From contig CAJQUW010009196.1 of NCBI GenBank assembly GCA_907163375.1, positions 1 through 64,000 of the forward strand: a DNA stretch of 64,000 nucleotides. The letters are read 5' to 3'. A model generated the notes under the pieces. That model did no database searches, was not told the origin of the DNA, and saw only the letters and a program-made list of their open reading frames with translations. Positions 21,966 to 38,150 of the stretch are shown here, in pieces. How positions within the stretch are numbered: position 1 is the stretch's first letter; every line of letters starts with the position of its first letter. The DNA is from Prostheceraeus crozeri. Lineage: Eukaryota > Platyhelminthes > Polycladida > Euryleptidae. The position numbers and the translations under genes are program-made.

Positions 21966-22539
21966 AGTAATGGGCAAAAGACCGTTCCAGGACACCGTAA
22001 AATTCAAAAAAATAGTATCTTTAAAAACGACATAAATTCATGAATTTGAACCCTTTTTCAGGTTATTAAGACTTAAATACATGAATTTAGTCCATTCAAA
22101 AAGTACCATTTTTTCAAAAAATGACATTTTTAAAAACGACATAAATTCATGAATTTGAACCCTTTTTCAAGTAATGAAGACCTAAATTCATAAATTTGGG
22201 CGTTTTTAAAAATACCCAATTTTCAAATTTTTCAAAATCTCAAATTTGAGAATTACAATTTTCACCCCCAAAATCATGACCGTTCAAGGACACCGAAAAA
22301 ATCATAAAAGTTAAGAATCTCAAAATTTGAGAATTACAATTTTCATTGCTTAAATCATGACCGTTCAAGGACACCAAAAATCATAAAAGTTGAGAATTTC
22401 AAATTCATGAATTTTATCCATCTTTCAGGTTTTCAAAATATATCATGTGACTAAAAATATTTCTTTAAAAATGGATGAAACAAAAGTGGAAGAAACCGCA
22501 AGAATATATCCTTCGTTATCATATGAACGTAGTTCTACT
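21966..22539 (+). repeat. Polinton left terminal inverted repeat
   Basis: 574 bp, matching 37572-38144 inverted with a few substitutions and indels. It contains internal repetition: AAAAACGACATAAATTCATG twice and AATTACAATTTTCA twice. A CATGACCGTTCAAGGACACC sequence also occurs twice and echoes the terminal GACCGTTCCAGGACACCG. It reaches into the first gene, so its last ~69 bases are coding. The internal repeats could be protein-binding sites for replication initiation. Confidence 0.9.
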
Positions 22540-23163
22540 TTAATGGACATTGAAAAAATGAATAAAGAAAAACACAAAGATAGAGTACGCTATATGAAAG
22601 ATAAGGAATCTCAATTATTATTAAGATTAGAGCATTATAAAAAATTAAGAAAGAGATGGACCAAAGTTAAGAATGTAACACAAGGAATTGGCATATTCTT
22701 AACAATAAGTTTAGGTGCTTTAACAATTGTCATTTCATCTGGCGTTCTTACAATTCCTGTTGTTGCTACAGCTTTAACAGGTACGGGTGTTTTTGCAACT
22801 TCACTTGTTACAATGTTAGATAAATCTTTAATAACTAAGAAACGAAAATCATTAAAAACTAAGCATTTACATATTAAAGAAGTCTATGATAAACTACATT
22901 ACTACTTTCAAAGAGTATGTGATGATAATGTTATTACGTTAGATGAGATTGAAAAATTTGATCAAATAGCTAATGAAGTAAATCAAACCTTTCAATTACA
23001 GTCCGAAAAAGTTGATGATAAAAATACAAAGGATGGCAAAATTTCTAGCGATGGTAAAATTTCTAATGAAGAAAATGACAAAATTTTTTTAGAAGAGCTA
23101 AAAACTTTAAGCGAAAATTTAAGCAAAACTTTATTAAACAAAACTTTATTAAACAAAACTTAA
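22471..23163 (+). CDS. Unknown membrane-type protein (first Polinton gene)
   Basis: 230 residues from the ATG at 22471, chosen because it follows the TTTAAAAATG context shared by this element's genes. No family is recognised. Visible features are a charged lysine-rich N-terminal third and a long hydrophobic stretch at about residues 72-118 (GIGIFLTISLGALTIVISSG then VVATALTGTGVFATSL). That stretch is long enough for two membrane passes. A charged helical C-terminus ends in NKTLLNKT repeats. The first 23 codons lie inside the terminal inverted repeat and are duplicated at the other end of the element. A small membrane or virion-associated protein is possible; function unknown. Confidence 0.65.
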   Translation: MDETKVEETARIYPSLSYERSSTLMDIEKMNKEKHKDRVRYMKDKESQLLLRLEHYKKLRKRWTKVKNVTQGIGIFLTISLGALTIVISSGVLTIPVVATALTGTGVFATSLVTMLDKSLITKKRKSLKTKHLHIKEVYDKLHYYFQRVCDDNVITLDEIEKFDQIANEVNQTFQLQSEKVDDKNTKDGKISSDGKISNEENDKIFLEELKTLSENLSKTLLNKTLLNKT

Positions 23164-23284
23164 AACGAGAAAACTTTAAACGAAAAGATGTCAGACAACA
23201 AAGCAATAAAAAAATAATTTGTTCAGTAAAATGTTTTTGTTGTATTCCAATGTTACCACAAAATTCAAATATTATATTTTAAAA

Positions 23285-24109
23285 ATGGATAAAATTAAAG
23301 CTGATAATCAAAAAAGAATTAAACAATTAGAAGAGTTAATAAAACAAAGAAATATTATGAAAGAAAATCATCTTCAACATAGAATGATAAAAGCTGGTAT
23401 TCAATCTGATATGTTTGAAAAAATGCAGCAAACCGAGCAAGTAAAAACTGATTTTGAAAAAACTATGGAACCATTTAAAACTCTTGAAAAAGAAAGTACA
23501 AATAATGATAAACAAATTGATATAACAGATCCAGAGCACAAAACTATATTAGATGACTATGGATTACTAGAATCAAACATTAATAAGAAATTACCAAAAT
23601 CTATGCAATTTGAACATTCTATTTCATTTATAGATGGAAAAACAATACCTAGATTTTATCTCGGTCAAAAAGAAATATTTCCACAACCTTTTCGAAGTAT
23701 AATTTTTTCACCAGATAAATCTCCTTTTAATTTAGATAGAAATTTTGTTAATCTTTTAAGAGGAGCAGATTTAAATAATTATGCTGTAGAAGATCTCATA
23801 AAATATAAAGCCATGTTAGACAGAGTTGGTGCAGTAAAATCTCTTAGACGTTATAAACAATTAGAAAATTTATTATCAACGGGAGTTAAAGTAGGGAAAG
23901 GTTTATCTGAAAAACAGAAAACAGAAACAACCATATTTTTACCAGATGATCCACAAGAATTACTAAATAGATTAAATATTTTAATATCTTCAATAAAAGA
24001 AGGACATAATTCTAGTTTCAATGAAATTCATGCTATATTGAAAAGACTGTTAGAAAAGAAGATTCTAAATGAAGAGGATTATAAAAGTGTAACGAACCGA
24101 ATGTTCTAG
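23285..24109 (+). CDS. Conserved Polinton-type protein of unknown function
   Basis: 274 residues from the ATG at 23285 (AAAAATGG context). The N-terminal ~80 residues are highly charged and likely coiled coil. The middle has a compact segment FRSIIFSPDKSPFNLDRNFV then NLLRGADLNNYAVEDLIKYK. This echoes a module I associate with an unnamed Polinton/adintovirus protein (a GLWELL...Y..EDL..Y pattern), seen here in diverged form. The last codons (TNRMF and stop) are made by a GC-rich double hairpin element at 24091-24120. It sits between the membrane protein and the penton gene on the same strand. No biochemical role can be assigned. Confidence 0.6.
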   Translation: MDKIKADNQKRIKQLEELIKQRNIMKENHLQHRMIKAGIQSDMFEKMQQTEQVKTDFEKTMEPFKTLEKESTNNDKQIDITDPEHKTILDDYGLLESNINKKLPKSMQFEHSISFIDGKTIPRFYLGQKEIFPQPFRSIIFSPDKSPFNLDRNFVNLLRGADLNNYAVEDLIKYKAMLDRVGAVKSLRRYKQLENLLSTGVKVGKGLSEKQKTETTIFLPDDPQELLNRLNILISSIKEGHNSSFNEIHAILKRLLEKKILNEEDYKSVTNRMF

Positions 24110-24120
24110 GGCTTCGCCCG
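24091..24120 (+). repeat. Palindromic mini-element A1, gene 3' end
   Basis: Two adjacent hairpins: GAACCGAATGTTC and GGGCTTCGCCC. It supplies the last codons and stop of the preceding gene. The same ~30-bp unit recurs at 28525-28553, 31165-31195 and 37043-37072, always in the sense orientation of the gene it touches. Confidence 0.8.
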
Positions 24121-24185
24121 TAGCTGAAATATGTTGTTTCTAATTTTTTTTTAAAAAAATATTTATTTAAAATTTTAACTAAAAA

Positions 24186-24955
24186 ATGTGTTCAGCAGAT
24201 TTAGACAAAATTAATAATCATTTAGAAAATTTGACAGAGATTTTGGGTTCATCAAAATTTAGTACGACGTTAAAAATTATAACAACTACTTCACACACTT
24301 GTAATTTAGAACCCATTCTACATTTGGAACAAAATAAAAATTATCAAATTGCATTGACTAGTTTCTCTACATTTAACACTATTCAAAACGTTATCAAAGA
24401 TGTGAATGATCAATTTAGATATTCTACTGATAAAGGCAAAACGTGGAAAGTACTAACTTTTCTTCCTGGTTCTTACGAAGTTGAATCAATATCAAATGAA
24501 ATTAAGAGACATTTAGGTATACCATTTAGAGATAAGAAACAATTACATTTTGCAGTTGAACCGGCAGTTAATAAATTTTCTCTTACTTTAGACGAAAATC
24601 ATCAAGTTGATTTTAATCATGATAGATCATTGTCAAAGCTATTAGGATTTAATAAACAAACCTATAGTCAAGGTTATCATTTAGGTGAGAAGATTCCAAA
24701 AATAACTGAAATAAATTCAGTTGTTGTACATTGTGACATTATTGAAGGAGGATATATAAATGGTAAATTGTCAAATTTAATATTCAGTTTTCCAGCTTTT
24801 ACTGTAACCATTGGTTTCCACAAACATTAATATATTTTCCTATTACAAGAAAAACTATTAACAACATTAACATTAGAATCACTGATGAGAAAGGACAAGA
24901 AATAAATTTTGGAGGTGAAGAGATTATGATAGATCTTTTGGTTCGAGAGGTATAA
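24186..24955 (+). pseudogene. Penton-like capsid protein, one frameshift
   Basis: The ATG at 24186 follows an A-rich leader. Visible motifs are YQIALTSFSTFNTIQNV, GSYEVESISNEIKRHL, VDF..., LLGF, and INSVVVHCDIIEGGY then NGKLSNLIFSFP. I recognise this succession as the penton-type single-jelly-roll protein of Polintons and adintoviruses, which would form capsid vertices. The first frame stops at 24830. The expected C-terminal strand (an IRITD...G.EI.F.GE pattern) continues in another frame to a stop at 24953-24955. A frameshift therefore lies at about 24800-24840. A hairpin cluster overlaps the true 3' end. Confidence 0.75.
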
Positions 24956-25000
24956 ACTCCCGTTCGGGAGGTATAAACTCCTACGCGAAGCTAGAGAAGT
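24945..25000 (+). terminator. Hairpin cluster at penton gene end
   Basis: CTCCCGTTCGGGAG at 24957-24970 is a perfect stem with a TTCG-type loop. It is embedded between two copies of GGTATAAACTCC, with GCGAAGC just after. The cluster overlaps the last codons and stop of the penton frame. A 3'-end role is inferred from position. Confidence 0.5.
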
Positions 25001-25067
25001 TTAATTTTCTTCTTCTTCTTTAGAAACAAAAAATTAAAAAATTAAAATTGAAATTTTTTATTAAAAA

Positions 25068-25816
25068 ATGAGTGAAGTACCCCCATTTAATAAAAAAAAA
25101 CTTAAATTTAATCATCATCCAAATTTATCTAATAAAGTTTTGTCAGTTATTTGTGGAAGATCAGGTTGTGGAAAAACGTATCTATTGTTTAAAATTTTAA
25201 CGACTCCAAATTTTTTGGATTATAACAATCTTATAATTTATACAACAACGGCAGAACAACCCGTCTATCAATTTTTAAAATATGGATTTGAAAATAATCT
25301 TAAAAAAACAGCAATTGCTTCATTATTCAAAGAATATGAAAAATCTGAAGATGAAGAAGAAATAAGTTCGTGGTGTGAAGAAGCAACAAAAATAATCAGT
25401 TAGTCGAAACCAATAAAAATAAGCATATAAAGATACAACTAATAGATGATAGTGGTAATATGCAAGATCCTAGTAAACTAGATAAAACAATGAAACATTG
25501 TGTAATTTTTGATGATTGTGTTAATGATAGAAATCAGTCAGTTCAGAGAAATTATTTCACAAGAGGTAGACATAATAACTGTAGTGTTTTTTATTTAACA
25601 CAAAGTATGTATTCATTAGACGGAAGTGTTATTAGAAAGAATGCAAATATATTTATACTATTTGAAATAAATGCAAGAAACTTAAGTGATTTGTTAAGAG
25701 ATGTATGTGTAAGAAATAAAGATGAATTTAAACAATCGTGTAACAATGCTTGGTCAAAAGATTATGGATTCATTACAATTACTATTGATAAAAAAATTCA
25801 TGATAGAGTTATCTAA
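25068..25816 (+). pseudogene. Packaging ATPase (FtsK/HerA-A32 type), one frameshift
   Basis: The ATG at 25068 follows TTTTTTATTAAAAA. Walker A is GRSGCGKT at about residue 29; Walker B is HCVIFDD near 25497. A later segment YFTRGRHNNCSVFYLTQS matches the sensor/arginine region of A32-like genome-packaging ATPases, which push DNA into capsids. The first frame ends at 25403. The second is open from about 25380 to 25816 in a different phase. A single indel, probably in the A-rich run near 25385-25395, separates Walker A from Walker B. Length is otherwise normal for the family. Confidence 0.85.
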
Positions 25817-25819
25817 CAA

Positions 25820-25850
25820 TTGTTCTCTGACTGAAAGTCGATAGAACATT
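25820..25850. terminator. Nested hairpin between convergent ATPase and PolB genes
   Basis: GACTGAAAGTC (25829-25839) is nested within GTTCT/AGAAC arms. It stands in the ~140-bp gap between two convergent genes, a natural place for a bidirectional 3'-end signal. Confidence 0.5.
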
Positions 25851-25952
25851 TGTTTACCGAGTGATAAAAAATATACAAATATAGTGTTATAATATTTTAT
25901 TATTTTTTATTTTATGTATATATCAAATTTGTCTATCTTAGAAATTAGAAAA

Positions 25953-28900
25953 TTAAAAAGGTTCAGTAGTTATTCCATCAGGTAAAATTTTTCTTTTATC
26001 ATCAAATGGATCTAATGCTAATTTATGTTCCTCTTTTAAATACATTTTATGTTTTTTTGAATTAAGTCTATAATTACATGCTGTTTTTATTTCATTATTA
26101 AATAATGCATTTTTATAATCTTGAAATGTCATTTGATTAGCCACTGATGCCTTTGAAATTCCTTTTAATGTTTTATGTGTTTTAATATTATTAGTTGTAT
26201 CATAACAGCAACATTCAGATTTTAAAAATATAGCTTCTGTTATGAAATCTTCATTTCCTTCTAATTCATCTTTTACTTTACATAAATCAGAAGGATGAAT
26301 GATATCTTTTATTTTATTAATTTCTTCATCAAGTGTAGAATTATACGGTATTGTTAATTCTAAGAAAACAGAATCGGTATCTGTAAAGTGTAATTTATAG
26401 TTTTTGCCATAAGCAGGTGCTAAATAATCATATATAAATCTATACATAAATAGTTTAGCTAATTCTAATATAGTGAAACCAATGAAATTAAACTTATCAT
26501 GTTTTACGCTAATTCGACGTAAATGTACAGCACATAGTTCATCACTAAATCTAGTAGTTCTTTTATATGTAGGTTTCCTTGTTAAATTTTGAAACCTATC
26601 TTTATCATGAACTATTTCAATATTTTGTCTATTACGCACATTTTCTAAAGTCTTCCCATAAAATGCATTATTCATTAATTTGAAGAACACGTTTCCAAAA
26701 TCATCTTTATTTCTTTTAGCTATTTTGCGTTTTTCAATATTGAACTCTATATAATTTTTTAACCACCTAGATTTTTGATAAAATAGTTTTCGATGTATTT
26801 TGGTGAGAATCATTCCATGATCTAAATACCAATCTAGCATTCTTCCTTCAACAACATACTTTCCTTTATTGCTTTGTGTTAACATAAGTTTTTTTGTTGG
26901 TCTGTATTTTTTAGGAATTAAAGATTTTTGATAATCTGAAAAATCTTCTATATTAGGAATTTTGTTTTCGGGACAGAAAGGAAAATATTTTGTTTTATCT
27001 TTTATTTCATCAGGGTATACTAAATCAACTTCATATATATAACCATGATTATAATTTCCATCATATGTTTTTTGATAATCAAGAATATTACACCATGACA
27101 TTTCACCTGTTGGTAATTCTTGTATCATGCAAGAAGAATATAAGCTATTAAAATCATAATATAACAAATAGTTTTCTCTCATGATTTCATCAACTGCTGC
27201 TTGACTATCTTCATTTGATATAAGTCCTTCTATATTTTGATTAAACAATTTTATAAACTGATCACTTTCTTCTGGAGATAAAGGTTTCATTATTCCATAA
27301 TCATCAGGATTTACTTTTTTATTGTAACACTGTACATAACGATTACCTAAAACTGATGAAACTCCACCTCTAATTCCAGATTCAAAAAATAATAATTTAT
27401 CATATGTATTTTCTTTATAATGTTTAAGTTTAACGGACTTTGTCCTAGAGCCATCGGCTTGAACACCAGTATGTTTTAATCCTGCTAGCCATGTTAAACC
27501 TGGTGTAGAATAACAATAACATGGATCTATTCCGTAATATTCTAAACACATGTCACGAAAGTTTTCGAAAAGATCAGCTAGTATTAATACATCTATCTGA
27601 AGATATTTCATTGTATAATCATACATTGTTCTACAATTTAACTCTCTCCAATTCTTTCCAGCTTCTGCATAGTCTTCGTCAGATAATTGTGATTGTTTTA
27701 ATGTTGATTTAAATTTATTTATTGGAGGAAGTTGTTCTTCTTCCATAATTTTATTCACAGAATTAAAATCTCCAGTTATATCAGTCTTCGACTGTGAGCC
27801 GCAGGCTATGTACTCATACGGAAATATTCCTTTTAAAGGTTTTAAATTATATTTATTTAATATTTTACATTGTTCAGATTTCAAAGTTTTTCCCATAACA
27901 TCTAATGAATAAGGAGTAAAAAATCTAAATGCATCTAAAATTCTAATACAACCTAATTGCATTGAAAAATATTCTTCTTCTGTTTTACAAAGTACATTTA
28001 TTTGTTGTTGTTGTAATTTTTCAGATGAAAATAAATCTTTCATTACTAGATGGAAATCATATTTAGAACCATTATAGAAATATAGAGGAACAAAGTTATA
28101 TTTAAATTTATTAGCATTAAGATTACAAGAGTTATGTGCTACACCTCTATATAATCCATTTAGATGATCATGATCTTTTACCTTATCAAGATATCTACCT
28201 TTGCCATTTTTATAATTTTTTGTAAATTCTTTTCCACAGTAATAACATTTTGTTTCATTAATAAAATTAAATTTTTCTTTTTCTGTTAATGGCATCATTG
28301 GAATATTTGTTTCAAGCAATTGTGAAAAATAATTTTGTAATTCTTCTACTTTCTTTGTAAACATTTCTGAACTATCTTCACCATAGTATTGAAAATATTC
28401 TGATTTAAATAATTCAGGATAATTTGAATGAATGTACATTCCCCAACATAATGGTTTTTGTTCAAATAAATATTTTTCTTTGCTTTGTTCAGGTGCACTT
28501 CTTTCAGAATTATCATTTTCAGAATCGGGCGAAGCCCTGGAACTTTCCGTTCGATTTTGTGTCATATTAACATTATATGCTTCAAAATCACAATAAATAG
28601 TAAAGGGTACTTTATTTTTAATATACCATTTATTATATTCTAAATAATCATCTTTAGGAAATGTGTTTCTGACTGCTTCATTTTGTTGGCAATTCTCCAA
28701 ATGTCTATTCATTTCTTCTTTAGTTCTAAAACTTGTCATACATTGGAGACAAGGAAAATTGGCATTATCTGAAGTTTTTGTGAATATAGAAACATCTTTA
28801 CACAATATAAAATGACCCTGATAATATAATATATTCGCTTGTGCTGGCTGTTTTGTCTGTTCTAGTTTTTCAAATTTATCTTTATATATTTCATGTGTTT

Positions 28901-30431
28901 CATCAATTTCTTTTGTAAGATTAAATGTATTTCGATGAAAATTTTGATTTAATATTTGTAACTGATAACTATATTCTTTATCATATTGTTCTTTATATTG
29001 TTGTAGACATTTTTTTAAAGATTCATTTATTTTTTGATTGGTTTCATTTTCTTCATTATTTAATTCTTTATTGTCTTCATTTAATTTTTGAATCGTTTCT
29101 ATCTTATTTTGATATTTATGGCCATATTCTTGTACTAATATTTTTGTTTGTTGTTGATAATCTGTTTTACATTTTTCTAAAATTTCATTTAAATTTTGTA
29201 ATTTTTGTTGATATTCTAAAGATAAAGATAAATAATCGGTATCATAATCATAATTATAATTACGTCCTTTATAATTATTATGACTAATCATTATTGGTGA
29301 TAGTGTTTTTATAATTTCAAATTTTTCAGTACATATTATATTTCCTTGGTAAAAAATATTATGATGCAAGTAATTTCCCCTATCATTATATACTATTTCT
29401 GATTGACATAAATTTTTATTATTCAAATAAAATTTTTTTGAATCTGAGTAAAGTGGAGTAATTTTACCAATAGAAACATAATTCACATTTAATTCAAAAA
29501 CATTTACTTCTATTAAATTTTTATTCTTTTTATGAAACTTTTTTAACCTATTATAATCATATGGAAATTCATCTAAGCCATCAGAAAGATCAAATTCATT
29601 TATGTATTCTTCTTTATTGTAATGACTTAGTCTTTCTTTGTGATATTTTGCAGGATGTAAATGTGCTATAATACTCCACAGAAAACAATAATCATCTTCA
29701 TTTTTTATGTTGATTATTTGTGGTGAACTGAAAGGCAAAGGAACATAACTACCACCAGCATTATTTTTATATTTATCAATTACTATTTTCTTAGATAGTA
29801 TTTTAACAAATCTCCAACCAGATTCACGTAACTGGGCTTCAATTATACAATTTTCTAATTTAAGTATCATCGATTCAAATATGGGTTGTATATCATTTAC
29901 ATTATGAATTTCTTGTGAATTTGTAAAATGTCCTTGTATTATTTCTTCAGGAATTCCATCAGGTCCATTTTTTGTATAAAGTACTTCTACATTCATATAA
30001 CATTTGAAAGATTTCTTAAATATATTATAAAAGTTTGTTAATACTTTATAAAAAGTTTTATCGGTTTCATTATGTTCAACAGATTCATTAAATAAATATT
30101 TTATATCTGTTACCGCTTCATCGGTTCGTTCAGCTTCATCAAATTCATCAGTATCGCTAAATAAATATCTTCCATCTGGTAGGGTCTCATATTCACTATT
30201 AAAAACTTTTTTATATTCCGAATGTGAATAATCATCAAACATTTTTTTAACTTTTATATCAGTAGGTAATGTTTCTAGATAGTTTTTATAACTATTTAAT
30301 TTTAATATATTTCCTTCATCAACTCGTTCTACATTTTGTAAATGCAATTTACTATTTAAATGAGATTGATAACTTCTTTTTGTTTGCAACTTTTTTTTAC
30401 ATAAGTTACAATAAAACTTGGTATTTTCCAT
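25953..30431 (-). CDS. polB: Protein-primed family B DNA polymerase with zinc-finger N-terminus
   Basis: The open frame starts at 30482. I prefer the ATG at 30431 (AAAAAAATGG context), giving 1492 residues. Positions below count from 30482. A C2H2 finger lies at ~24-44 and a second (CLQC...H...C) at ~575. Exo I is CDFEAY at ~631. A CYYC...DHDH...GVAHNSCN zinc/HNH-like module lies at ~746-785. Exo II is YNGSKYDFHL at ~804 and Exo III is YLQIDVLILADLF at ~960. Pol A is YYDFNSLYSS at ~1109, Pol B is NNAFYGKTLENV at ~1272 and Pol C is TDTDSVF at ~1369. All exonuclease and polymerase residues are present. It would copy the linear element from a protein primer. Three GC-rich hairpin insertions lie in its coding sequence. 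It is the longest intact gene here. Confidence 0.95.
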   Translation of the reverse strand: MENTKFYCNLCKKKLQTKRSYQSHLNSKLHLQNVERVDEGNILKLNSYKNYLETLPTDIKVKKMFDDYSHSEYKKVFNSEYETLPDGRYLFSDTDEFDEAERTDEAVTDIKYLFNESVEHNETDKTFYKVLTNFYNIFKKSFKCYMNVEVLYTKNGPDGIPEEIIQGHFTNSQEIHNVNDIQPIFESMILKLENCIIEAQLRESGWRFVKILSKKIVIDKYKNNAGGSYVPLPFSSPQIINIKNEDDYCFLWSIIAHLHPAKYHKERLSHYNKEEYINEFDLSDGLDEFPYDYNRLKKFHKKNKNLIEVNVFELNVNYVSIGKITPLYSDSKKFYLNNKNLCQSEIVYNDRGNYLHHNIFYQGNIICTEKFEIIKTLSPIMISHNNYKGRNYNYDYDTDYLSLSLEYQQKLQNLNEILEKCKTDYQQQTKILVQEYGHKYQNKIETIQKLNEDNKELNNEENETNQKINESLKKCLQQYKEQYDKEYSYQLQILNQNFHRNTFNLTKEIDETHEIYKDKFEKLEQTKQPAQANILYYQGHFILCKDVSIFTKTSDNANFPCLQCMTSFRTKEEMNRHLENCQQNEAVRNTFPKDDYLEYNKWYIKNKVPFTIYCDFEAYNVNMTQNRTESSRASPDSENDNSERSAPEQSKEKYLFEQKPLCWGMYIHSNYPELFKSEYFQYYGEDSSEMFTKKVEELQNYFSQLLETNIPMMPLTEKEKFNFINETKCYYCGKEFTKNYKNGKGRYLDKVKDHDHLNGLYRGVAHNSCNLNANKFKYNFVPLYFYNGSKYDFHLVMKDLFSSEKLQQQQINVLCKTEEEYFSMQLGCIRILDAFRFFTPYSLDVMGKTLKSEQCKILNKYNLKPLKGIFPYEYIACGSQSKTDITGDFNSVNKIMEEEQLPPINKFKSTLKQSQLSDEDYAEAGKNWRELNCRTMYDYTMKYLQIDVLILADLFENFRDMCLEYYGIDPCYCYSTPGLTWLAGLKHTGVQADGSRTKSVKLKHYKENTYDKLLFFESGIRGGVSSVLGNRYVQCYNKKVNPDDYGIMKPLSPEESDQFIKLFNQNIEGLISNEDSQAAVDEIMRENYLLYYDFNSLYSSCMIQELPTGEMSWCNILDYQKTYDGNYNHGYIYEVDLVYPDEIKDKTKYFPFCPENKIPNIEDFSDYQKSLIPKKYRPTKKLMLTQSNKGKYVVEGRMLDWYLDHGMILTKIHRKLFYQKSRWLKNYIEFNIEKRKIAKRNKDDFGNVFFKLMNNAFYGKTLENVRNRQNIEIVHDKDRFQNLTRKPTYKRTTRFSDELCAVHLRRISVKHDKFNFIGFTILELAKLFMYRFIYDYLAPAYGKNYKLHFTDTDSVFLELTIPYNSTLDEEINKIKDIIHPSDLCKVKDELEGNEDFITEAIFLKSECCCYDTTNNIKTHKTLKGISKASVANQMTFQDYKNALFNNEIKTACNYRLNSKKHKMYLKEEHKLALDPFDDKRKILPDGITTEPF
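27435..27459 (-). repeat. Double-hairpin insertion within PolB (B)
   Basis: GGACTTTGTCC (27435-27445) and AGCCATCGGCT (27449-27459) are perfect small stems 3 bases apart. In PolB they encode the ADGSRTKS stretch. GC content is far above the surrounding gene. Confidence 0.7.
27782..27807 (-). repeat. Double-hairpin insertion within PolB (C)
   Basis: CAGTCTTCGACTG (27782-27794) and AGCCGCAGGCT (27797-27807). In PolB they encode ACGSQSKTD between the catalytic blocks Exo II and Exo III. Confidence 0.7.
28525..28553 (-). repeat. Palindromic mini-element A2 within PolB
   Basis: Same ~30-bp family as 24091-24120, in frame, encoding RTESSRASPD just after Exo I. The unrelated protein at 30900-31910 carries RTEGSRVLPD from copy A3. 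Confidence 0.8.
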
Positions 30432-30551
30432 TTTTTTAATTTTTAAAGAAAAAATTTGTGTTTTAATTTTAGATATAAACATTTTAATATCAAGGACTTG
30501 AGTGTTATTTTATATTATTATATATTACACGTTCTTTAGTTATTTTTTTTC

Positions 30552-30640
30552 TTTATCATATTAAGTTTAATCACATTAAGTTTTATCATATTAAGTTTTA
30601 TCATATTAAGTTTTATCATATTAAGTTTCATCATATAATG
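30552..30640. repeat. 15-bp tandem array upstream of PolB
   Basis: About six units of TTTTATCATATTAAG with minor variants. It lies upstream (minus-strand sense) of PolB. It also overlaps the last codons of the reading-frame extension of the neighbouring gene. Confidence 0.75.
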
Positions 30641-31910
30641 TTTTATCAAAAGATAATTTAAATTTATTTTCACTAACTATTGATTCTTCATCATCATAAA
30701 TTGATTCTTCATCATCATCATAAATTACACTTTTTGGGATTGGATACCATTCCCTGATAGGAATATCTAATTCTAAATTACATTTCTTATCTGATAATAA
30801 TATAATAGAGAATAATATTGGTCTTTGTTCTCTTTTGGAAAATTTAATAACACCACTATAATCTGAATCACTTTTAGTTTTTATTAAAGATGATAAAATT
30901 TAAAATTGATTAGATGTAAATCCTAATTTAAATTTTGTAGACCCGACACATAGTTGTCTAGCAGTATCTTCAACTATACCATCATTATTATTTTCAATTG
31001 TAAGAAAATGAAATTTAGATAAATCTTTATAATTACTAATATTTTTATAATCTTTTTTACCATTTACACCATTTTCAGATATTTTTGAATCATCATCTAT
31101 ATTATCATCATCTATATTATTATCATCTATATTATTATCATTATTATCATAAGATTCTTTAAGATCGGGCAAAACCCTAGAACCTTCGGTTCGTTTATTA
31201 TGATTATGGTCATTGTTAATAGTATAAGGTGTAGTCCACATATAAATTTTCTCTTGTTGAGCTAAACCATTTATATAAGATTTTAATAAATTAATATTTA
31301 AGTTGGAATATAATCCTATATACGTATCATCATCATATCTTTGGGGCATTTCTAATGTTTCTTGTTTATAAATTGTGTCTCTATAATATACTTGACATAA
31401 TAATTCTTCATTATGTTTTTTACTCTCTATGTGAATGTTATATTGATTTTGTTCATCAACAAATAATCTTATTTTTTCTTTGGAAAAAGATTTTAATTTT
31501 TTAACTAATTCTTTAATATTGATATAATTAATAATTTTATTTTCTATCCAATCAGTATTACTAATCGGCAAAACTGCTCTAATAAAACCGAAAACATTAT
31601 TATGACCTATTATAACCATATTTTCTTTATTTAATTCAACATAAGCTACATCATTATATTTGCTTACAATCTCCATAAATTTAATAAATGGATCACCTGG
31701 AAATAAACAATAGTTAGTTTCTATAGAAGGTAAACCTTTAGTCTGTTCTCTAAATATTTCGGCTTGTAATTCCAACAAAAGATTAACATCTATACATGGA
31801 TTATTATTATTATTATCAAAACATTTATTTTCAAATCCCGTTGATCTCGTCGAATAAGAAGAACAGGATGATGCGGACGAATATAATTTTTTTAAATTTG
31901 GGGTTTCCAT
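30621..31910 (-). pseudogene. Unknown Polinton protein with an internal stop
   Basis: The frame from the ATG at 31910 (AAAAAATGG context) runs 336 codons to a TAA at 30900-30902. It then stays open in the same frame for 92 more codons to 30621. The downstream part (SLIKTKSDSDYSGVIKFSKRE then ...ELDIPIREWYPIP) reads like real protein, so the TAA is probably a nonsense mutation. I recognise no family. The middle (FMEIVSKYNDVAYVELNKEN...VIIGHN) has alternating strands loosely like a sliding clamp, but I do not call it. A polymorphic NNIDD repeat lies at about residues 252-275, beside hairpin element A3. It is divergent from the fibre-like gene, 46 bp away. Confidence 0.55.
31165..31195 (-). repeat. 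Palindromic mini-element A3 in coding sequence
   Basis: The hairpins GGGCAAAACCC and GAACCTTCGGTTC in the A-family arrangement. Encodes RTEGSRVLPD within the unknown protein, next to a low-complexity Asp/Asn tract. Confidence 0.8.
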
Positions 31911-31956
31911 TTTTTTATTTTTATTAGAAAAAAATTTATTTTTTTATTGTTAAAAG
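31911..31956. promoter_or_regulatory. Divergent promoter region
   Basis: 46 bp of almost pure A/T between the divergent starts of the unknown gene (minus) and the fibre-like gene (plus). It contains ATTTTTTTAT and ATTTTTTTATTG runs directed toward both ATGs, the same T-run/AT/A-run context seen before the other genes of this element. Confidence 0.5.
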
Positions 31957-32844
31957 ATGATGTTACCAAATGTTGGTGGAGGTGCATATATCCCGAATAA
32001 TCGTGAATTAGAAATAGAGATAGAAAATTATATCATGAAAACTGGAGACGTTTTATCTGGTCCATTGCATCTTTCTATTCTTCCGCAACAAAATACAGAG
32101 TTAACAAATAAACAATATGTTGATACACAAATCAATTATTTAAAAGAAAAATATATAAACGATGTTTTGGTTCCACTGATGAATGAATTGAAGTTGCTTA
32201 AACTTAATGACAAATCATTAAACGAAAAATTATTAAAACTTGATAAAGAGGATAGAGAGCTAGAAGCAGATATAGCAAAACTTTTTAAAAAGATTTCTGA
32301 ACAATCAAAAATTTTAATATTACTTTCTTTAAATTTAAAATCTGCTGTAATTAAAAATAAACATCAGATAAAAATGTTAAAAGAACAATTAGAAGATGAA
32401 ATAGAAAATCTACCTGAAAGAATTAAAAAAAATTTAAAGCAGTTACAAACTACATTCCAAAAAAGTGTTGATGAATTGAGTTCTAAAATTACTCAACAAA
32501 TGAAAAAGATGAATAGAATAATAAATGAAGTAAACTCACTTAATCAAAGAGTTGATAAAATGAAAACTCTTAAAATCAATTTAGAAAATGAATTAAAGAA
32601 AAATTTACAAGAAAACTCTAAAGAAAATAAAGAACAGTTAGATTCTGTTAAAAGACAATTAGATGTTCTTAAAATTAAGTTAAATGCTCTTAAAACGGCA
32701 TTGAAGATTAATCAGCAGAAAATGCAAGTTAATAGAAAAGAAATTAAAGTACATCACACGCCGCTTGACGCAATAGATAAAGTGCAACAATCAATTAATA
32801 AAGTTATCTCGAAGTTGTTGTCCATTCACAAACGTAAATCTTGA
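31957..32844 (+). CDS. Fibre-like coiled-coil protein with phage tail-fibre motif
   Basis: 295 residues. Near the N-terminus, residues 27-56 read MKTGDVLSGPLHL...TNKQYVD. This is the K-T-G-D-x-x-S-G-x-L ... N-K-x-Y-V-D signature found in bacteriophage tail-fibre and collar proteins. From about residue 60 to the end the sequence is almost entirely heptad-like Leu/Lys/Glu/Ile helix, consistent with a trimeric coiled-coil stalk. No globular head is apparent. Located between the unknown minus-strand gene and the pVI-like and capsid genes, it is a plausible receptor-binding spike of the virion. The motif is seen; the role is inferred. Confidence 0.65.
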   Translation: MMLPNVGGGAYIPNNRELEIEIENYIMKTGDVLSGPLHLSILPQQNTELTNKQYVDTQINYLKEKYINDVLVPLMNELKLLKLNDKSLNEKLLKLDKEDRELEADIAKLFKKISEQSKILILLSLNLKSAVIKNKHQIKMLKEQLEDEIENLPERIKKNLKQLQTTFQKSVDELSSKITQQMKKMNRIINEVNSLNQRVDKMKTLKINLENELKKNLQENSKENKEQLDSVKRQLDVLKIKLNALKTALKINQQKMQVNRKEIKVHHTPLDAIDKVQQSINKVISKLLSIHKRKS

Positions 32845-32846
32845 TC

Positions 32847-32904
32847 GGAGCGAAGCTCCTCAGGTTACTAGCCGATCAGACCAAAGGTCCTCAGGTTACT
32901 AACC
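32847..32904 (+). terminator. Four-hairpin cluster after fibre-like gene
   Basis: GGAGCGAAGCTCC, GGTTACTAGCC, GACCAAAGGTC and GGTTACTAACC in sequence, arranged as two repeats of hairpin + CTCA + GGTTACTA(G/A)CC. It starts two bases after the stop codon. Confidence 0.65.
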
Positions 32905-32948
32905 AATCGTAAATATTTTTTCTCAAAAGTCAAATTTAATCCTAAAAA

Positions 32949-33423
32949 ATGCCTATAATTTATAAACACAATCTTAAACATTTTGCTTCAAATCAAAAAA
33001 TTGCTCATGAACCACGTATGAATCCTGTTTATCATTATGATAATAGAGAAACAGTCGGAACACAAAAGTTCCTAGGCACCAGCTGGGATCTTCTCTGGTA
33101 TTGGTAGTATCGTTAACTTAATTAAAAATAATAAAGATTTGATTACATCTGCTGCAAAAGGAGCAGCTGCTATAGGTAGTACAGCTAGTGCAATATCAAA
33201 TGCTGTCAAGTCTCAAAACGAATTAAAACAACTAGAAGCTATTCGTAAACTTAGGAATGATTCCGAAGAACTAAAAAAATTAAAAAAACTTTCAGATGAA
33301 ACAAAGAACAAAATTGCTAACATTGCTGTTGGGGAAACCTTGAGGAGCGGAGCTCCGTCTGATAGTAAACATAATGAAAAAACAATTGAAGAAATAAGAG
33401 GTAATGGTCTAGCAAAATTCTAA
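32949..33423 (+). pseudogene. pVI-like membrane-active minor capsid protein, one frameshift
   Basis: The ATG at 32949 follows CCTAAAAA. The first frame (MPIIYKHNLKHF...) is open to 33107. The second is open from 33076 to 33423, so a frameshift lies at about 33062-33105. The second frame begins with a glycine/isoleucine-rich amphipathic segment (GIFSGIGSIVNLI). It continues ITSAAKGAAAIGSTASAISN and a charged helix. This layout, amphipathic helix then Ala-rich helix, resembles the adenovirus pVI-like lytic proteins described in adintoviruses. A GC hairpin (33344-33356) inside the frame encodes part of LRSGAPSD. Confidence 0.6.
33344..33356 (+). repeat. Hairpin insertion in pVI-like gene (H)
   Basis: GGAGCGGAGCTCC, a perfect 5-bp stem with a 3-base loop. 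It is similar to 32847-32859 and is in frame within the gene. Confidence 0.65.
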
Positions 33424-33516
33424 AATTATATTTTAGTAAAATTTTTTAGTAATTTTTTTAGTAAAAATTTTTTCTGTCTGTGAGAAAAACAAAAAGTCAA
33501 ATTATTTTTTATAAAA

Positions 33517-34851
33517 ATGTCTTCGCTTATCGAAAATAAATTTAGATTAGACGATCCTCCGTTCGTCAGTAATAATCAAAAAAAGAATGACTATATAAGA
33601 GTTGCTATGAATCCCGGATCTTCCAGTAGAGTAAATACTGGAGGTGATTTAATTTTTGAAGTTGATAATCAGCAGAGTTATATATATTTACCTGATTCGT
33701 TTTTACATTGTGAATATTCTTTATATAGTGATGCTAATTTTACAACACCATTACCAGAAACCGATAATATTGCACTAGAGAATATTTTTTTTCCAAGATT
33801 ATTTACACAAATGCGTTTAGATGTTGCAACTCAAAATATAGAAACAATAAGTGATTCTCCAGGTGTAATTGATACAATGCTTAGATTTATAACAATTGGT
33901 GAAAATAATAAAAAGCATGAAATCGAAGGTTGGTTTCCTGATACTAATGATGGTATAATTGTTGATGATTTAACTCACACTGGAACAGATGCAGCAGGAA
34001 TTGCGAAAGATGTAGAAAATATTGCAAAACATTTAAATAAAACAAATAATGATGCATATAAAGAAAGACGTGAATTTAACAAGAAAAGTAAACAGACAGT
34101 AAATTGGTCATTGTCTCCATTATTCGGATATTTAGATTATGACAAAATATCATATCAATTAAAATTTAAATTAATAATTCATCGTACAGCAAATAATGAA
34201 TTAATATTTTTTGGTGAGACTGGAAAAAAAGCATATTTAAAAATTGATAGACTTGAATGGTGGATTAAGCATATTACTCCTAGTTTAGAGATTGAAACAG
34301 CTATTGCAAAAAGATTAAATACTAACAAACCAATTCCAGTAAATTTTCTAAAGCGTACTGCTAGTTCAGTAACTTTTTCCGAACAAAGATTTAACTGGCA
34401 TTTTACTAGAACTGCGAATACTCCAAGATATTTATTGCTAACTTTTCAAAGAAATAATTCTCCAAGTTTTGATAAGAACAATAATCTCTTCCATATTAAT
34501 ACAATTCGAAGTTTACAAGTTTCATTAAATCAAACCCGATATCCAATTGATCCATTAAGATTCGATGATACCAATAATCAATTTATGGAAGGATATGATT
34601 CTTATCGAAATCTTTGTATAGAATTTGGAGTTGAACCACAATTAACTCCTGGAGATTGGAGACATTTATATCCAATTTTCTGTTTCGATTTAAGTGCACA
34701 ATCTAAAGATATTATTAAAAATGGTTGTGATGTAACAATTAATATTGAAAAGAAAGATTCCACAACTTCATTGATTGCTTATGGTTTATTGCTAGAAGAT
34801 GTAAAATATTCTATTGAAATTCTTAATGGAAAGATGACTAGGATAGGCTAA
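33517..34851 (+). CDS. Major capsid protein (double jelly-roll, hexon-like)
   Basis: 444 residues. The ATG follows ATTTTTTATAAAA. The profile is that of a Polinton/adintovirus capsid protein: an N-terminal arm (RLDDPPFVSNNQKKNDYIRV), then two beta-rich halves without membrane segments. Near residue 388 comes the characteristic LYPIFCFDLSAQSKD block, followed by a final strand series ending in ILNGKMTRIG. It would form the hexagonal faces of the icosahedral particle. It lies in the expected cluster with minor capsid genes. The frame is intact. The stop codon lies inside a GGCTAAAGCC hairpin. Confidence 0.8.
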   Translation: MSSLIENKFRLDDPPFVSNNQKKNDYIRVAMNPGSSSRVNTGGDLIFEVDNQQSYIYLPDSFLHCEYSLYSDANFTTPLPETDNIALENIFFPRLFTQMRLDVATQNIETISDSPGVIDTMLRFITIGENNKKHEIEGWFPDTNDGIIVDDLTHTGTDAAGIAKDVENIAKHLNKTNNDAYKERREFNKKSKQTVNWSLSPLFGYLDYDKISYQLKFKLIIHRTANNELIFFGETGKKAYLKIDRLEWWIKHITPSLEIETAIAKRLNTNKPIPVNFLKRTASSVTFSEQRFNWHFTRTANTPRYLLLTFQRNNSPSFDKNNNLFHINTIRSLQVSLNQTRYPIDPLRFDDTNNQFMEGYDSYRNLCIEFGVEPQLTPGDWRHLYPIFCFDLSAQSKDIIKNGCDVTINIEKKDSTTSLIAYGLLLEDVKYSIEILNGKMTRIG

Positions 34852-34867
34852 AGCCCAAGACTTCGTC
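34846..34867 (+). terminator. Double hairpin spanning the capsid gene stop codon
   Basis: GGCTAAAGCC (34846-34855) contains the TAA stop in its loop; GACTTCGTC follows at 34859-34867. Confidence 0.6.
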
Positions 34868-34878
34868 GATTAATTAAT

Positions 34879-35035
34879 TTTTTCATAACTAGCATAGATT
34901 AAAATTTTTGTTAACTTAAAAATTCTTAACTTAAAAATTTTTTCATAACTAGAATAGATTAAAAAAATTCTTAACTTAAAATTTTTTCATAACTAGAATA
35001 GATTGAAATTTTTGATAACTTAAAATTTTTTTATT
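34879..35035 (+). repeat. ~50-bp tandem repeat upstream of pX-like gene
   Basis: Three imperfect units containing TTTTTCATAACTAGAATAGATT and (T)TAACTTAAAAATT. It fills the gap between the capsid and pX-like genes and ends in the TTTTTTTATTAAAAATG start context. Confidence 0.75.
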
Positions 35036-35039
35036 AAAA

Positions 35040-35522
35040 ATGTCGCAACCGAAAAGTAATAATAATAAAACTATTGAATTAAAATTACGTAATATTGTTG
35101 ACAAAAATACCCCTAAAACTATTACGATTAACAAAAAAAAGTATTACATAAATAAACCAATGATAGAGAATATTCAATTACAAGAAGAAAAGAATGGCGG
35201 GATTCTCCCATTAATTCCCCTAATAATAGGTGGCATAGCAGCTGCAGGAAGTGTTGCAGGTGGGACAGCTGGTATTGTCCAAGCAGTAAATAAAAATAAA
35301 TCAGAGAAGGCAGCATTAGAAGAACAAAAACGTCATAATAGAGAGTTAGAGAAAGTTGCTAGGGGTGAAGGAGTAGTAGATAATTTTATTAGTAAATTAA
35401 AATTAGTTGATGAAGGAAAACGAGTTCTTAAAAATATTCTCCACAATGTTGATGATTTAATTGAAATTAAAGAAACTAAAGATGGTTCTGGAATATATCT
35501 AAGTCCTAGTATGATTCGGTAA
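35040..35522 (+). CDS. pX-like virion core protein
   Basis: 160 residues. A basic N-terminal third carries TITINKKKYYINKP. A glycine-rich hydrophobic segment lies at residues 53-83 (GGILPLIPLIIGGIAAAGSV then AGGTAGIV). A charged helix and a tail ending GSGIYLSPSMIR follow. The GG-x-LPLIP-like hydrophobic hairpin is what I recall for adenovirus core protein X homologues in adintoviruses. These are small processed proteins packed with DNA or membrane-active. A protease site after GG is plausible given the adenain-like enzyme encoded nearby. Moderate confidence in the name; the frame is certainly real. Confidence 0.6.
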   Translation: MSQPKSNNNKTIELKLRNIVDKNTPKTITINKKKYYINKPMIENIQLQEEKNGGILPLIPLIIGGIAAAGSVAGGTAGIVQAVNKNKSEKAALEEQKRHNRELEKVARGEGVVDNFISKLKLVDEGKRVLKNILHNVDDLIEIKETKDGSGIYLSPSMIR

Positions 35523-35531
35523 TAACCTCAG

Positions 35532-35572
35532 GACCTTTGGTCCGATCGGCTAAAGCCTCTGAACAAAGTTCC
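35532..35572 (+). terminator. Triple hairpin after pX-like gene
   Basis: GGACCTTTGGTCC, GGCTAAAGCC and GAACAAAGTTC occur in tandem starting ten bases after the stop. A 15-bp T-rich array (TTTTATCTTTTAAAT) then leads into the next gene. Confidence 0.65.
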
Positions 35573-35639
35573 ATTAGGTAAAACATTTATTTTATCTTTT
35601 AAATTTTTTTTATCTTTTAAATTTTTTTTATCTTTTAAA

Positions 35640-36989
35640 ATGAATTCTACAAATTCCGAAAATTTAATTAAATTAAAAATTTCTAATTTAGATTTATTGA
35701 ATTATCTATTAAACAAAAATGAAAACTCAAATTGTCAGCATATTGGAGGTGACAAGAACAAAGTTCCATACCACTTCGGTGGTGATATACAAAAAACATT
35801 AGAAAACTTTCCTGGCTTTATTTGGAGTAAATATTCGAAAGAAAAACATCTTCCTGGTCATTCATATACCGGTCCAGGAACTCGATTAGATATAAGACTA
35901 GATGAGAATAATAATCCGAAACCAGGTGAAGAACCAATAAATAGAGTAGATGCCGCAGCTTACAGGCATGATTTAGCTTATCGAAATCATGATCTAAGTT
36001 CTCGACATGCAGCTGATAAGAAAATGATTCAAGAATTGGATAGTATTCAAAATCCAACATTTAGAGAAAAAATTGAAAGAATGTTTGTTAAGAAAGCTTT
36101 ACAAGCTAAAATATTATTCGGACAGGGTTTAAATGAAACTAATAACTCTGAGAGCAACGCTCGAACCTACGCGTCCGAAATGTCGAATGACCCAAGCCGC
36201 TATGCGTCTGAAATTCATAAAGAATACAGAAGGCCTAAATATTTATTGAAAGTAAAAGTATTTAATAAAGATGATATTTGGAGTGCTGATCTTATTCATA
36301 TGCCGAATGAAAGGGACTACAAATACGCATTGACCGTTATAGATTTATATACACGATATGCTTGGGTAAAGCCTTTAAAAAATAAAAGTGGTCTATCAGT
36401 TAAATATGCGTTTGAAGAAATCTTTAAAGAAAGTAATAGAAAGCCAAGGAAATTGTTTGTTGATAAAGGGTCGGAATTTTATAACAGAAACGTTCAGCCA
36501 CTATTTGAAACTGTTTATTCAACTGAAAACGCAGGAAAAGCTGTAGTGATAGAAAGATTCAATCGGACGTTAAAAAATAAATTATTCAAGAAATTTACTG
36601 AGCAAAGAAATCAGAAATGGTTGAAGATATTACCAGGAATTGTAGAAGAGTACAATAATAAAGTTCATTCTGGTATTGAAGAAACTCCAAAGAATGCTTC
36701 TGTCGACCCTGATTTGATAAGAAAAAAAATATTCGAGAATAATAACTTGAATGAGAGTAATCCGAATTTGCAGAAACTTAAGCCGAAATTTAAAATTGGA
36801 GATAGAGTTAGAATATTTAAATATAAGAATAAATTTGAAAAAGGCTTCGTCGGATACTGGACGAAAGAGATATTTGAAATTTCTAAAATAAATCAAAGTT
36901 ATCCGATTACTTACGAAATCAAAGATTTAGATGATGAAGATATCAGAGGCCGATTTTATCAAAATGAATTACAACGAAGTGATTTTTAA
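35640..36989 (+). CDS. Phospholipase A2-like domain fused to retroviral-type integrase
   Basis: 449 residues in one frame. Residues ~43-160 are a parvovirus VP1-type PLA2: FPGF, the calcium loop YTGPG (76-80), P-x-N-x-x-D-AAA, and the catalytic H110-D111 with Y114 (AAAYRHDLAYRNHD). Residues ~195-449 are a Polinton integrase: W-S-A-D217, FVD275-KGSEF and E305 in VIERFNRT. A C-terminal chromo-like GDRVRIFKY...FEKGFVGYWT follows. The second D to E spacing is 29 residues, shorter than the usual ~35, pointing to a small deletion between them. The two domains are normally separate proteins. The join is a GC-rich linker (SNARTYASEMSNDPSRYASE) containing a small hairpin. PLA2 would breach membranes at entry; the integrase would insert the element. 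Confidence 0.85.
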   Translation: MNSTNSENLIKLKISNLDLLNYLLNKNENSNCQHIGGDKNKVPYHFGGDIQKTLENFPGFIWSKYSKEKHLPGHSYTGPGTRLDIRLDENNNPKPGEEPINRVDAAAYRHDLAYRNHDLSSRHAADKKMIQELDSIQNPTFREKIERMFVKKALQAKILFGQGLNETNNSESNARTYASEMSNDPSRYASEIHKEYRRPKYLLKVKVFNKDDIWSADLIHMPNERDYKYALTVIDLYTRYAWVKPLKNKSGLSVKYAFEEIFKESNRKPRKLFVDKGSEFYNRNVQPLFETVYSTENAGKAVVIERFNRTLKNKLFKKFTEQRNQKWLKILPGIVEEYNNKVHSGIEETPKNASVDPDLIRKKIFENNNLNESNPNLQKLKPKFKIGDRVRIFKYKNKFEKGFVGYWTKEIFEISKINQSYPITYEIKDLDDEDIRGRFYQNELQRSDF

Positions 36990-37072
36990 TTATCATTATT
37001 ATTATTATTGGAACTAACGTTTCGGGAATGAAATTCCCTTGTTAGGCGTAGCCATAGAACCTACGGTTCGTT
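36990..37072. terminator. Hairpin cluster between convergent integrase and protease genes, including element A4
   Basis: GGGAATGAAATTCCC (37024-37038) is followed by A-family element 37043-37072 (GGCGTAGCC + GAACCTACGGTTC). A4 provides the last codons (NEP) and stop of the minus-strand protease. A GGAACTAACGTTTC stem-like sequence precedes. The position suits a shared 3' end. Confidence 0.65.
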
Positions 37073-37518
37073 CAATTCTAACATTATATCTAGAAATGGT
37101 ACTCCTTTTTGTAATTTGTACAAAACGTATAAACATAATTGTCCACAATAGGTAGTGCCTGGTGTTTGAATTTGAAACGTATTGTATGTTCCCGTTCCAA
37201 GTAATTCTGTTACTTCATTTGTAGGGGGCAAACCGTATGAATCAAAATAATAGTTCTGCTGATGATTTTTAACGCCTGCTGACCAATGTACGCCTTTTTG
37301 GTCTGAAGTGTGAAGATTGGTTACGAAATTTACAGTTATTGATGGAACTTTGTTCCGGGAACTGAAGGTTCCTGTTGGCTTATTTTTTAGGAATTGTAAT
37401 TCGTCTCTCATTAGAACATGAAAATTCTTTATTCCTAATTCATTTGCAATTTTCTTTAGGTCGAAAATTGTCGTAGTTTGCGTTCCATATAATTTTAAAA
37501 CTCATTTATGTTGTTCAT
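37061..37518 (-). pseudogene. Adenain-like cysteine protease, one frameshift
   Basis: The start ATG at 37518 sits in TTTTTTTATTATAAAATG. After seven codons the frame stops, and the true frame resumes within a run of A/T at about 37495-37505, then stays open to 37061. Catalytic residues of the adenovirus protease family are visible: H in VHWSAGV, D in YYFDSYGLPP and C in TYCGQLCLYVLYKL. Length (~150 residues) is shorter than adenain but usual for Polintons. It would mature capsid and core precursors. A double hairpin (37344-37372) is inserted in frame ahead of the histidine block, encoding GTFSSRNKVPS. Confidence 0.8.
37344..37372 (-). repeat. Double-hairpin insertion in protease gene (J)
   Basis: GGAACTTTGTTCC and GGAACTGAAGGTTCC separated by one base, in frame. 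Confidence 0.7.
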
Positions 37519-37640
37519 TTTATAATAAAAAAATTTCTTAAGGGACCCCTAGAAGTTAGAAGGGAGGGGGTAGTAGAGCTACGTTCATATGATATTGAAG
37601 GATATATTCTTGCGGCTTCTTCCACTTTTGTTTCATCCAT
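37515..37640 (-). pseudogene. Orphan 41-codon ORF from terminal repeat leader
   Basis: It starts with the same MDETKVEE leader as the first Polinton gene because it begins inside the right terminal inverted repeat. It then diverges and stops at a TGA that overlaps the protease start as ATGA. The matching gene body is absent, so it is either a leftover of the repeat or a short upstream ORF of the protease transcript. Confidence 0.6.
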
Positions 37641-38144
37641 TTTTAAAGAAATATTTTTAGTCACATGATATATTTTGAAAACCTGAAAGATGGATAAAAT
37701 TCATGAATTTGAAATTCTCAACTTTTATGATTTTTGGTGTCCTTGAACGGTCATGATTTAAGCAATGAAAATTGTAATTCTCAAATTTTGAGATTCTTAA
37801 CTTTTATGATTTTTTCGCTGTCCTGGAACGGTCATGATTTTGGGGGTGAAAATTGTAATTCTCAAATTTGAGATTTTGAAAAATTTGAAAATTGGGTATT
37901 TTTAAAAACGCCCACATTTATGAATTTAGGTCTTCATTACCTGAAAAAGGGTTCAAATTCATGAATTTATGTCGTTTTTAAAAATGTCATTTTTTGAAGA
38001 AATGGTACTTTTTGAATGGACTAAATTCATGTATTTAAGTCTTAATAACCTGAAAAAGGGTTCAAATTCATGAATTTATGTCGTTTTTAAAGATACTATT
38101 TTTTGAATTTTACGGTGTCCTGGAACGGTCTTTTGCCCATTACT
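37572..38144 (-). repeat. Polinton right terminal inverted repeat
   Basis: Matches 21966-22539 inverted, ends CCCATTACT, and contains the same internal repeats. A few substitutions and short indels distinguish the arms. Confidence 0.9.
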
Positions 38145-38150
38145 TAGGTC
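38145..38150 (+). repeat. Polinton target-site duplication, right
   Basis: TAGGTC, identical to 21960-21965. Confidence 0.95.

Follow-up and report, generated by a model that had tools for sequence, protein, structure and literature searches.

Short double-hairpin elements that may have multiplied within a flatworm Polinton

Are the short palindromic repeats found in the genes of a Polinton from the polyclad flatworm Prostheceraeus crozeri the traces of a mobile element, or did they arise in place as parts or end signals of those genes? The window that we analysed, 64,000 nucleotides of contig CAJQUW010009196.1 (assembly GCA_907163375.1, positions 1 to 64,000), contains the following host element of ~16 kb (26.7% GC), whose terminal inverted repeats lie at about 21966-22539 and 37572-38144.

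21966..38144, no strand assigned: host Polinton with terminal inverted repeats, 27% GC

Here, a sequence-only reading had noticed four copies of a ~30-bp palindromic mini-element in AT-rich surroundings, and had proposed that it inserts into genes and encodes a shared peptide. The observation was right and the surroundings are indeed AT-rich; the interpretation is partly supported and mostly points the right way. The best explanation, to which we give a probability of roughly three in four, is that a short mobile-like double-hairpin DNA element of 26-27 bp has increased in number within this lineage of Polintons, duplicating 3 bp of its target on insertion. More elements are present than first described, with two further double hairpins (P2 and P3) in a 1509-residue open reading frame (ORF) named PolB, a hairpin pair in the protease ORF (PRO-i) and a second family (F2), and the clean evidence for insertion comes from one of the four original copies, copy D, and from sites outside the original list. 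Some relatives of PolB bear PF03175, which we take to be the family-B DNA polymerase; the labels protease, ATPase, penton-like and minor-capsid-like are likewise presumed from general Polinton anatomy, none of them being securely named by the analysis.

The four copies lie where they had been reported and form a family, F1, with 26-nt cores.

24094..24119, plus strand: F1 copy A; 13-nt hairpin, TA, 11-nt hairpin; gives the end and stop of ORF296
28527..28552, minus strand: F1 copy B; in-frame in PolB as RTESSRASPD, in a length-variable linker
31167..31192, minus strand: F1 copy C; in-frame in ORF336 as RTEGSRVLPD, in a protein without relatives
37044..37069, minus strand: F1 copy D; supplies the last codons and stop of the protease ORF, between AAC (37070-37072) and AAC (37041-37043); relative P0075 gives a protein-level empty site

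In every copy, 2 nt separate a first hairpin of 13 nt from a second of 11 nt, and ungapped alignment of the cores gives the consensus GAACCGAAGGTTC TA GGGCTTCGCCC. The two-hairpin layout described earlier is confirmed, with standard pairing (G-U included) in 33 of the 36 pair cells and with the two-hairpin structure returned by folding with flanks in 4/4 copies, but the exact words given for it vary among the copies: C has GGGTTTTGCCC, D has TGGCTACGCCT with the outer pair broken, and the inner pair of hairpin 1 is broken in A and B. The cores are 54-62% GC, compared to 27% for the Polinton. Five of the six pairs of copies are identical at 21 or more of 26 positions and the sixth at 20/26. An all-versus-all comparison of GC-rich 26-mers from the Polinton interior yielded eight locus pairs at or above 21/26, five in F1 and three in F2; because no locus pair reached this level in 100 dinucleotide shuffles, the four F1 copies are alike beyond chance. 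Outside the Polinton, the best match to an F1 copy in the window is 17/26.

All four copies are in the sense orientation of the gene they touch, as had been claimed (F2 occurs both ways). B and C read in the same frame in PolB and ORF336, and copies A and D supply the last codons and stop of ORF296 (TNRMF-stop) and of the protease ORF (NEP-stop), each in another frame. The proposed shared peptide is clear in B and C, with P3 (VQADGSRTKS) in the same frame, and does not extend to A and D, which are read in other frames with stops. Four of the six readings of the F1 consensus are open, yet B, C and P3 share one reading.

A search with the protease ORF returned 104 relatives, 30 of which were aligned, the nine close ones being P0071-P0079. 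P0075 ends in LELNKGISFPKR, with LELN joined to KGISFPKR. The corresponding DNA of the window reads LELN up to D and continues after D, from the second AAC, with NKGISFPKR-stop. We read D as an insertion because the tail of P0075 is exactly what the two flanks of D encode; this supports a 26-bp insertion with the AAC duplicated, 29 nt in total, which would have shifted the frame so that the protein ends at NEP. P0074 ends in LELNEP (the two residues and a stop), compatible with its carrying D, and the other seven of the nine close relatives have different tails.

Additionally, PolB residues 500-1000 were used as a query, giving 70 relatives, of which 15 were aligned. Compared to P0001, 69% identical over the searched region, the PolB of the window has three insertions of exactly ten residues, two of which are double hairpins in the DNA.

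27780..27809, minus strand: P2; 30-nt PolB insertion IACGSQSKTD, flanked by ATA repeats; a 13-nt and an 11-nt hairpin with 9/9 pairs; 11/26 against F1, no clear resemblance
27435..27464, minus strand: P3; 30-nt PolB insertion VQADGSRTKS between GTT repeats; 17/26 against the F1 consensus on the sense strand

Both were located via the protein comparison, independently of the palindrome motif. The P2 residues are absent from all 14 relatives that cover the site (P0026 is without the region), as are the P3 residues (14/14; P0006 ends earlier). The DNA of P2 forms the two hairpins AGCCTGCGGCT CA CAGTCGAAGACTG, and that of P3 the two hairpins AGCCGATGGCT CTA GGACAAAGTCC. Each 30-nt insertion opens with a triplet that also follows it, ATA for P2 and GTT for P3, which fits what a 27-bp element with a 3-bp duplication would produce; the ancestral ATA at P2 is presumed, P0001 having Leu there and P0002 Ile. 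The comparison supports P2 and P3 as clean double-hairpin insertions into PolB. Together with AAC at D, identical triplets flank the insertion at all three sites where a relative fixes its size to the codon, and each such match would be expected by chance once in 64.

When a covariance model was derived solely from the four F1 copies and run over both strands of the 64 kb, its best other match was P3, on the sense strand, at 14.3 bits. On one strand, 0.04% of mononucleotide-shuffled versions of its 50-mer reached the 17/26 identity of P3 to the F1 consensus, and P3 is read in the same frame as B and C; P3 is a probable relative of F1. An antisense placement of P2 and P3 was considered and withdrawn, the covariance model and the identity to the F1 consensus placing P3 on the sense strand; P2 may have either orientation. 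As a separate observation, PolB contains a 138-residue Gln/Lys/Glu-rich, coiled-coil-like stretch (~28850-29260, minus strand) that is absent from P0001 and the other 14 aligned relatives.

In the protease ORF and just beyond it, two more hairpin pairs were found.

37340..37372, minus strand: PRO-i; protease-ORF insertion with two hairpins, GTFSSRNKVPS, 33 nt
37010..37038, minus strand: E3; hairpin pair beyond the protease stop, reading as the tail KGISFPKR of P0075

PRO-i consists of two neighbouring hairpins with near-identical arms, and measures 11 residues against P0074 and 13 against P0073. It is present in two of the nine close relatives (P0071 and P0072) and absent from P0073-P0079, so that protein-level empty sites are directly observed at PRO-i as well as at D, P2 and P3. 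The more distantly related P0083 bears a different insertion at the same place. On the protease tree, the presence and absence of insertions is scattered and the key forks are weakly supported, so no gain count was drawn from it. The palindrome potential of the relatives' inserted peptides over synonymous codons did not discriminate, the known positives being matched by 12-25% of shuffles. Near-identical protease relatives differ by 10 residues (P0089 vs P0084), 22 residues (P0088 vs P0084) and 14 residues (P0083 vs P0087). The insertions in P0084/P0088/P0089 and in P0083/P0087 fall at two sites, which are possible recent insertion hot spots.

The second family, F2, has the same general plan.

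32847..32873, plus strand: F2 copy 1; 13-nt hairpin, TCA, 11-nt hairpin; directly after the ORF295 stop
32878..32904, plus strand: F2 copy 2; in tandem with copy 1
35517..35543, minus strand: F2 copy 3; at the ORF160 stop, in opposite orientation
33331..33356, minus strand: possible fourth copy of F2; lies within the frameshifted minor-capsid-like stretch; assigned by visual inspection, best ungapped match within the Polinton 16/26

The Polinton holds at least two element families, F1 and F2. GC-rich perfect hairpins number 11 in the Polinton interior, against a shuffle mean of 1.9 (maximum 6, 100 shuffles), and those with stems of at least 5 and at least 4 G/C pairs number 4 against 0.15. Strict double hairpins number 3 in the interior against 0.05 in shuffles, and 2 against 0.4 and 3 against 0.95 in the flanks; this strict scan misses the F1 copies with imperfect stems. 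A permissive scan, dominated by AT hairpins, found 102, 66 and 32 in the interior at three thresholds against 100, 52 and 20, and the flanks also exceed their shuffles. Outside F1 and F2, more hairpins occur at gene ends, at 24939-25001 (penton-like), 25829-25854 (ATPase-like), 34847-34867 (capsid) and 35548-35571 (ORF160).

Next, we propose how such elements could have spread. A self-complementary unit, composed of a 13-nt hairpin, a spacer of 2-3 nt and an 11-nt hairpin, would be copied and inserted via a 3-bp staggered cut, duplicating the target triplet. A 27-bp element would then add 30 nt and keep the frame, and a 26-bp element would add 29 nt and shift it. The surviving copies would mark tolerated sites, some in-frame within proteins and others at a stop, with the final codons of the gene being replaced there; tolerated sites within proteins may correspond to loops or linkers. 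We infer that the events were gains rather than precise losses, the direction of each included, and that the double-hairpin fold is the mobilised unit. An enzyme would act in trans with a 3-bp staggered cut, and the Polinton polymerase and integrase are candidates for copying and inserting solely because they are present. Insertion of Polintons themselves leaves 5-6 bp, a length that would speak against the integrase working in its ordinary manner.

Several observations weigh against this explanation. The apparent empty sites are known at the protein level alone, and the 3-bp repeat comes from three sites, the PRO-i triplets matching at only 2/3 bases. Copy B sits in a PolB linker whose length varies among the aligned relatives, and is for this reason not shown as a clean insertion; copy C is not a proven insertion because ORF336 is without relatives (0 of 1844 candidates at E 0.001). 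RTESSRASPD and RTEGSRVLPD are consistent with being insertions. The comparison with relatives that the sequence-only reading had called for favours insertion at D, P2 and P3, where covering relatives lack the residues; B and C may be insertions. In the suggested folding check, the two hairpins form in all four copies, but the energies are only slightly better than those of shuffles and are ordinary for the composition, with z-scores of -0.45, -0.81, -1.27 and -1.39 for 36-nt pieces holding A-D, and with 62, 33, 19 and 15 of 200 shuffles, respectively, folding as well. Elsewhere, the z-scores are -0.75 for P2, -1.85 for P3, -1.09 to -1.44 for three F2 copies and -3.60 for PRO-i.

Within F1 alone, no pair has changed on both sides, so F1 by itself gives no covariation. 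Across nine copies (F1, P2, P3 and three of F2), 73 of 80 pair cells are Watson-Crick, compared to 25% expected from composition, and seven of nine pairs show at least two Watson-Crick types; this set includes copies picked for palindromy and assumes the common descent of the families. MAFFT misaligned F1 with P2 and P3, and pairs were therefore counted by the fixed layout. P2, PRO-i and E3 share the double-hairpin plan with F1 but little sequence, the third ten-residue PolB insertion (NYKNGKGRYL, 28188-28217) is AT-rich (GC 0.23) and without a hairpin, and the model match of P3 is weak by itself (E 0.12), with 13 non-F1 matches at E 10, of which 5 lie inside and 8 outside the Polinton. For F2 copies, the best matches in the window reach 22/27 inside the Polinton and as many as 19/27 beyond it. 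The left flank is also enriched in GC-rich perfect hairpins (20 vs 11.9, maximum 20; right flank 17 vs 17.9), including those with the longer GC-rich stems (8 vs 2.2), so that a surplus of hairpins alone does not set the Polinton apart; the sequence families are the stronger evidence.

The hairpins could instead be 3'-end signals of Polinton transcripts, as in mimi- and marseilleviruses, with the stop-codon copies functional and the in-gene copies strays or incidental. In the accessible part of the source on those viruses, palindromes are enriched at stop codons, with polyadenylation inside one (PMC5413956). Folding points the same way in the Polinton: the mean energy of the best-folding 50-mers around 12 stop codons is -9.7 kcal/mol, compared to -6.6 (standard deviation 0.9) for random placement, with 0 of 2000 sets as low; start codons average -3.7 kcal/mol by the same folding; and seven of the 12 gene ends have a best fold that ranks in the top 5% of single windows by stability (one stretch is common to the INT and PRO ends, which converge). 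The other five ends (ORF1, PolB, ORF336, minor-capsid-like and MCP) fall outside that 5%, and five hairpin pairs (B, C, P2, P3 and PRO-i) lie wholly within ORFs. Moreover, a 3'-end rule predicts neither the shared sequence, nor the 3-bp repeats, nor the presence and absence among relatives, and tolerance of insertions after a stop would yield the same placement. We consider end signalling unlikely as the account of these hairpins, and the clustering at stop codons fits both insertion tolerance and a 3'-end signal, which can combine.

Movement would also be unnecessary if local mutation, through quasi-palindrome correction or polymerase template switching, had made GC-rich palindromes in place. 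Families that are unlike in sequence yet follow the same plan, and the near-identical arms of the neighbouring PRO-i hairpins, are what this process might leave. It does not explain why one 26-mer occurs at four sites, spaced by as much as 13 kb, or why exact 30-nt additions lie between 3-bp repeats. It is disfavoured for F1 and improbable overall. We find it more improbable still that the residues are ancestral coding sequence with incidental palindromes: B and C are in-frame and without stops, as this would have it, but A and D are read in different frames, P2 and P3 are each missing in 14/14 site-covering relatives, PRO-i is missing in 7/9 close protease relatives, and D is missing in P0075; at B and C an ancestral origin may hold.

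By size and layout, the closest kin of these elements appear to be mitochondrial GC clusters and double-hairpin elements rather than Rickettsia elements, this being nearer because of the 26-27 bp length, the two hairpins and the short direct repeats. According to the accessible part of PMC4478555, yeast mitochondrial GC clusters have direct repeats AG or ACT and presence/absence differences; clusters such as GC42 resemble the Polinton elements as short GC-rich hairpin-forming repeats in an AT-rich genome. GC42 is, however, 42 nt long and mitochondrial, and the clusters are mostly intergenic, whereas the Polinton elements are 26-27 nt long and several lie within genes. Fungal mitochondrial double-hairpin elements, in the available portion of PMC10085805, are GC-rich, mostly intergenic with few in rRNA genes, and thought mobile; they share the two adjacent hairpins and the GC-richness, but are mitochondrial, and the likeness is one of anatomy. 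The elements described here reside outside mitochondrial DNA, in a Polinton whose genes include those for a polymerase, a capsid protein and an integrase.

The parallel to Rickettsia palindromic elements that had been drawn is a loose one. In-frame insertion into unrelated genes, adding a peptide, is common to both, and is seen here at P2 and P3 in PolB and at PRO-i in the protease ORF, but the bacterial elements, as given in the part of PMC10969869 that was accessible, are ~150 bp long with a conserved peptide ORF, compared to 26-27 bp, three reading frames and a clear shared peptide only in B and C. The 3'-end hairpins of Marseilleviridae and Mimivirus are alike in lying beside stop codons, but no shared-sequence family or mobility is described for them in the accessible part of PMC5413956, and those of the Polinton also lie within ORFs. 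Among the open-licence Polinton and adintovirus papers covered, including passages of PMC11071308, PMC10675110, PMC12220804 and PMC5799277, none described such elements, nor did a wider search on palindromic elements inserted in viral ORFs show any, a scope that leaves room for earlier descriptions in print.

A bolder possibility, which we hold only tentatively and with the odds somewhat against it, is that the Polinton clade carries its own class of actively spreading double-hairpin parasites of 26-30 bp, mobilised by the Polinton replication or integration machinery with 3-bp target duplication. If so, they would repeatedly be a source of new peptides, of new C-termini and of new stops, and might also serve as mRNA 3'-end signals, and the insertions of 10, 14 and 22 residues in P0084/P0089/P0088 and P0087/P0083 would be recent traces. 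To our knowledge, such elements would rank among the smallest mobile elements. Mitochondria have been found to hold double-hairpin mini-elements whose movement is unexplained, and Rickettsia to hold palindromic ones that insert into genes; elements in a Polinton, which has a polymerase and an integrase and whose close relatives show both filled and empty sites, would provide a new system for tracing mobility, and a route for a virus-like element to acquire short peptides and new C-termini.

Scans of viral contigs for relatives with DNA gave no relative and no pattern match, and a scan of genome contigs gave four remote loci at 25-27% identity. In these loci (54,289 bases), the F1 model had no match at E 10 with default filters, the hairpin counts of 2, 10, 4 and 35 showed no clear excess over shuffle means of 2.7, 6.0, 5.1 and 28.8, and there were 1, 6, 4 and 11 repeat pairs, the top ones mostly close together.

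The gene set of the Polinton includes a double-jelly-roll capsid protein and an integrase fused to a phospholipase-A2-like domain. This copy is degraded and probably a fossil, because three of its genes are frameshifted: penton-like (24767-24955), ATPase-like (25379-25816) and minor-capsid-like (32949-33423). The host flanks carry THAP-domain genes along with BEL/Pao and other retroelement genes. An ORF start (MDETKVEE...) sits inside the terminal inverted repeats (21966-22539 and 37572-38144), giving a gene beginning at both ends. A THAP-domain transposon that has inverted repeats of its own (19546-19595 and 38733-38782; 38140-38586) may enclose the Polinton, and a second THAP ORF lies at 10362-11261. 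Tandem repeats occupy 34876-35040, in the interval from the capsid gene to the ORF160 gene; upstream of PolB, at 30552-30656, lie repeats of 15 bp.

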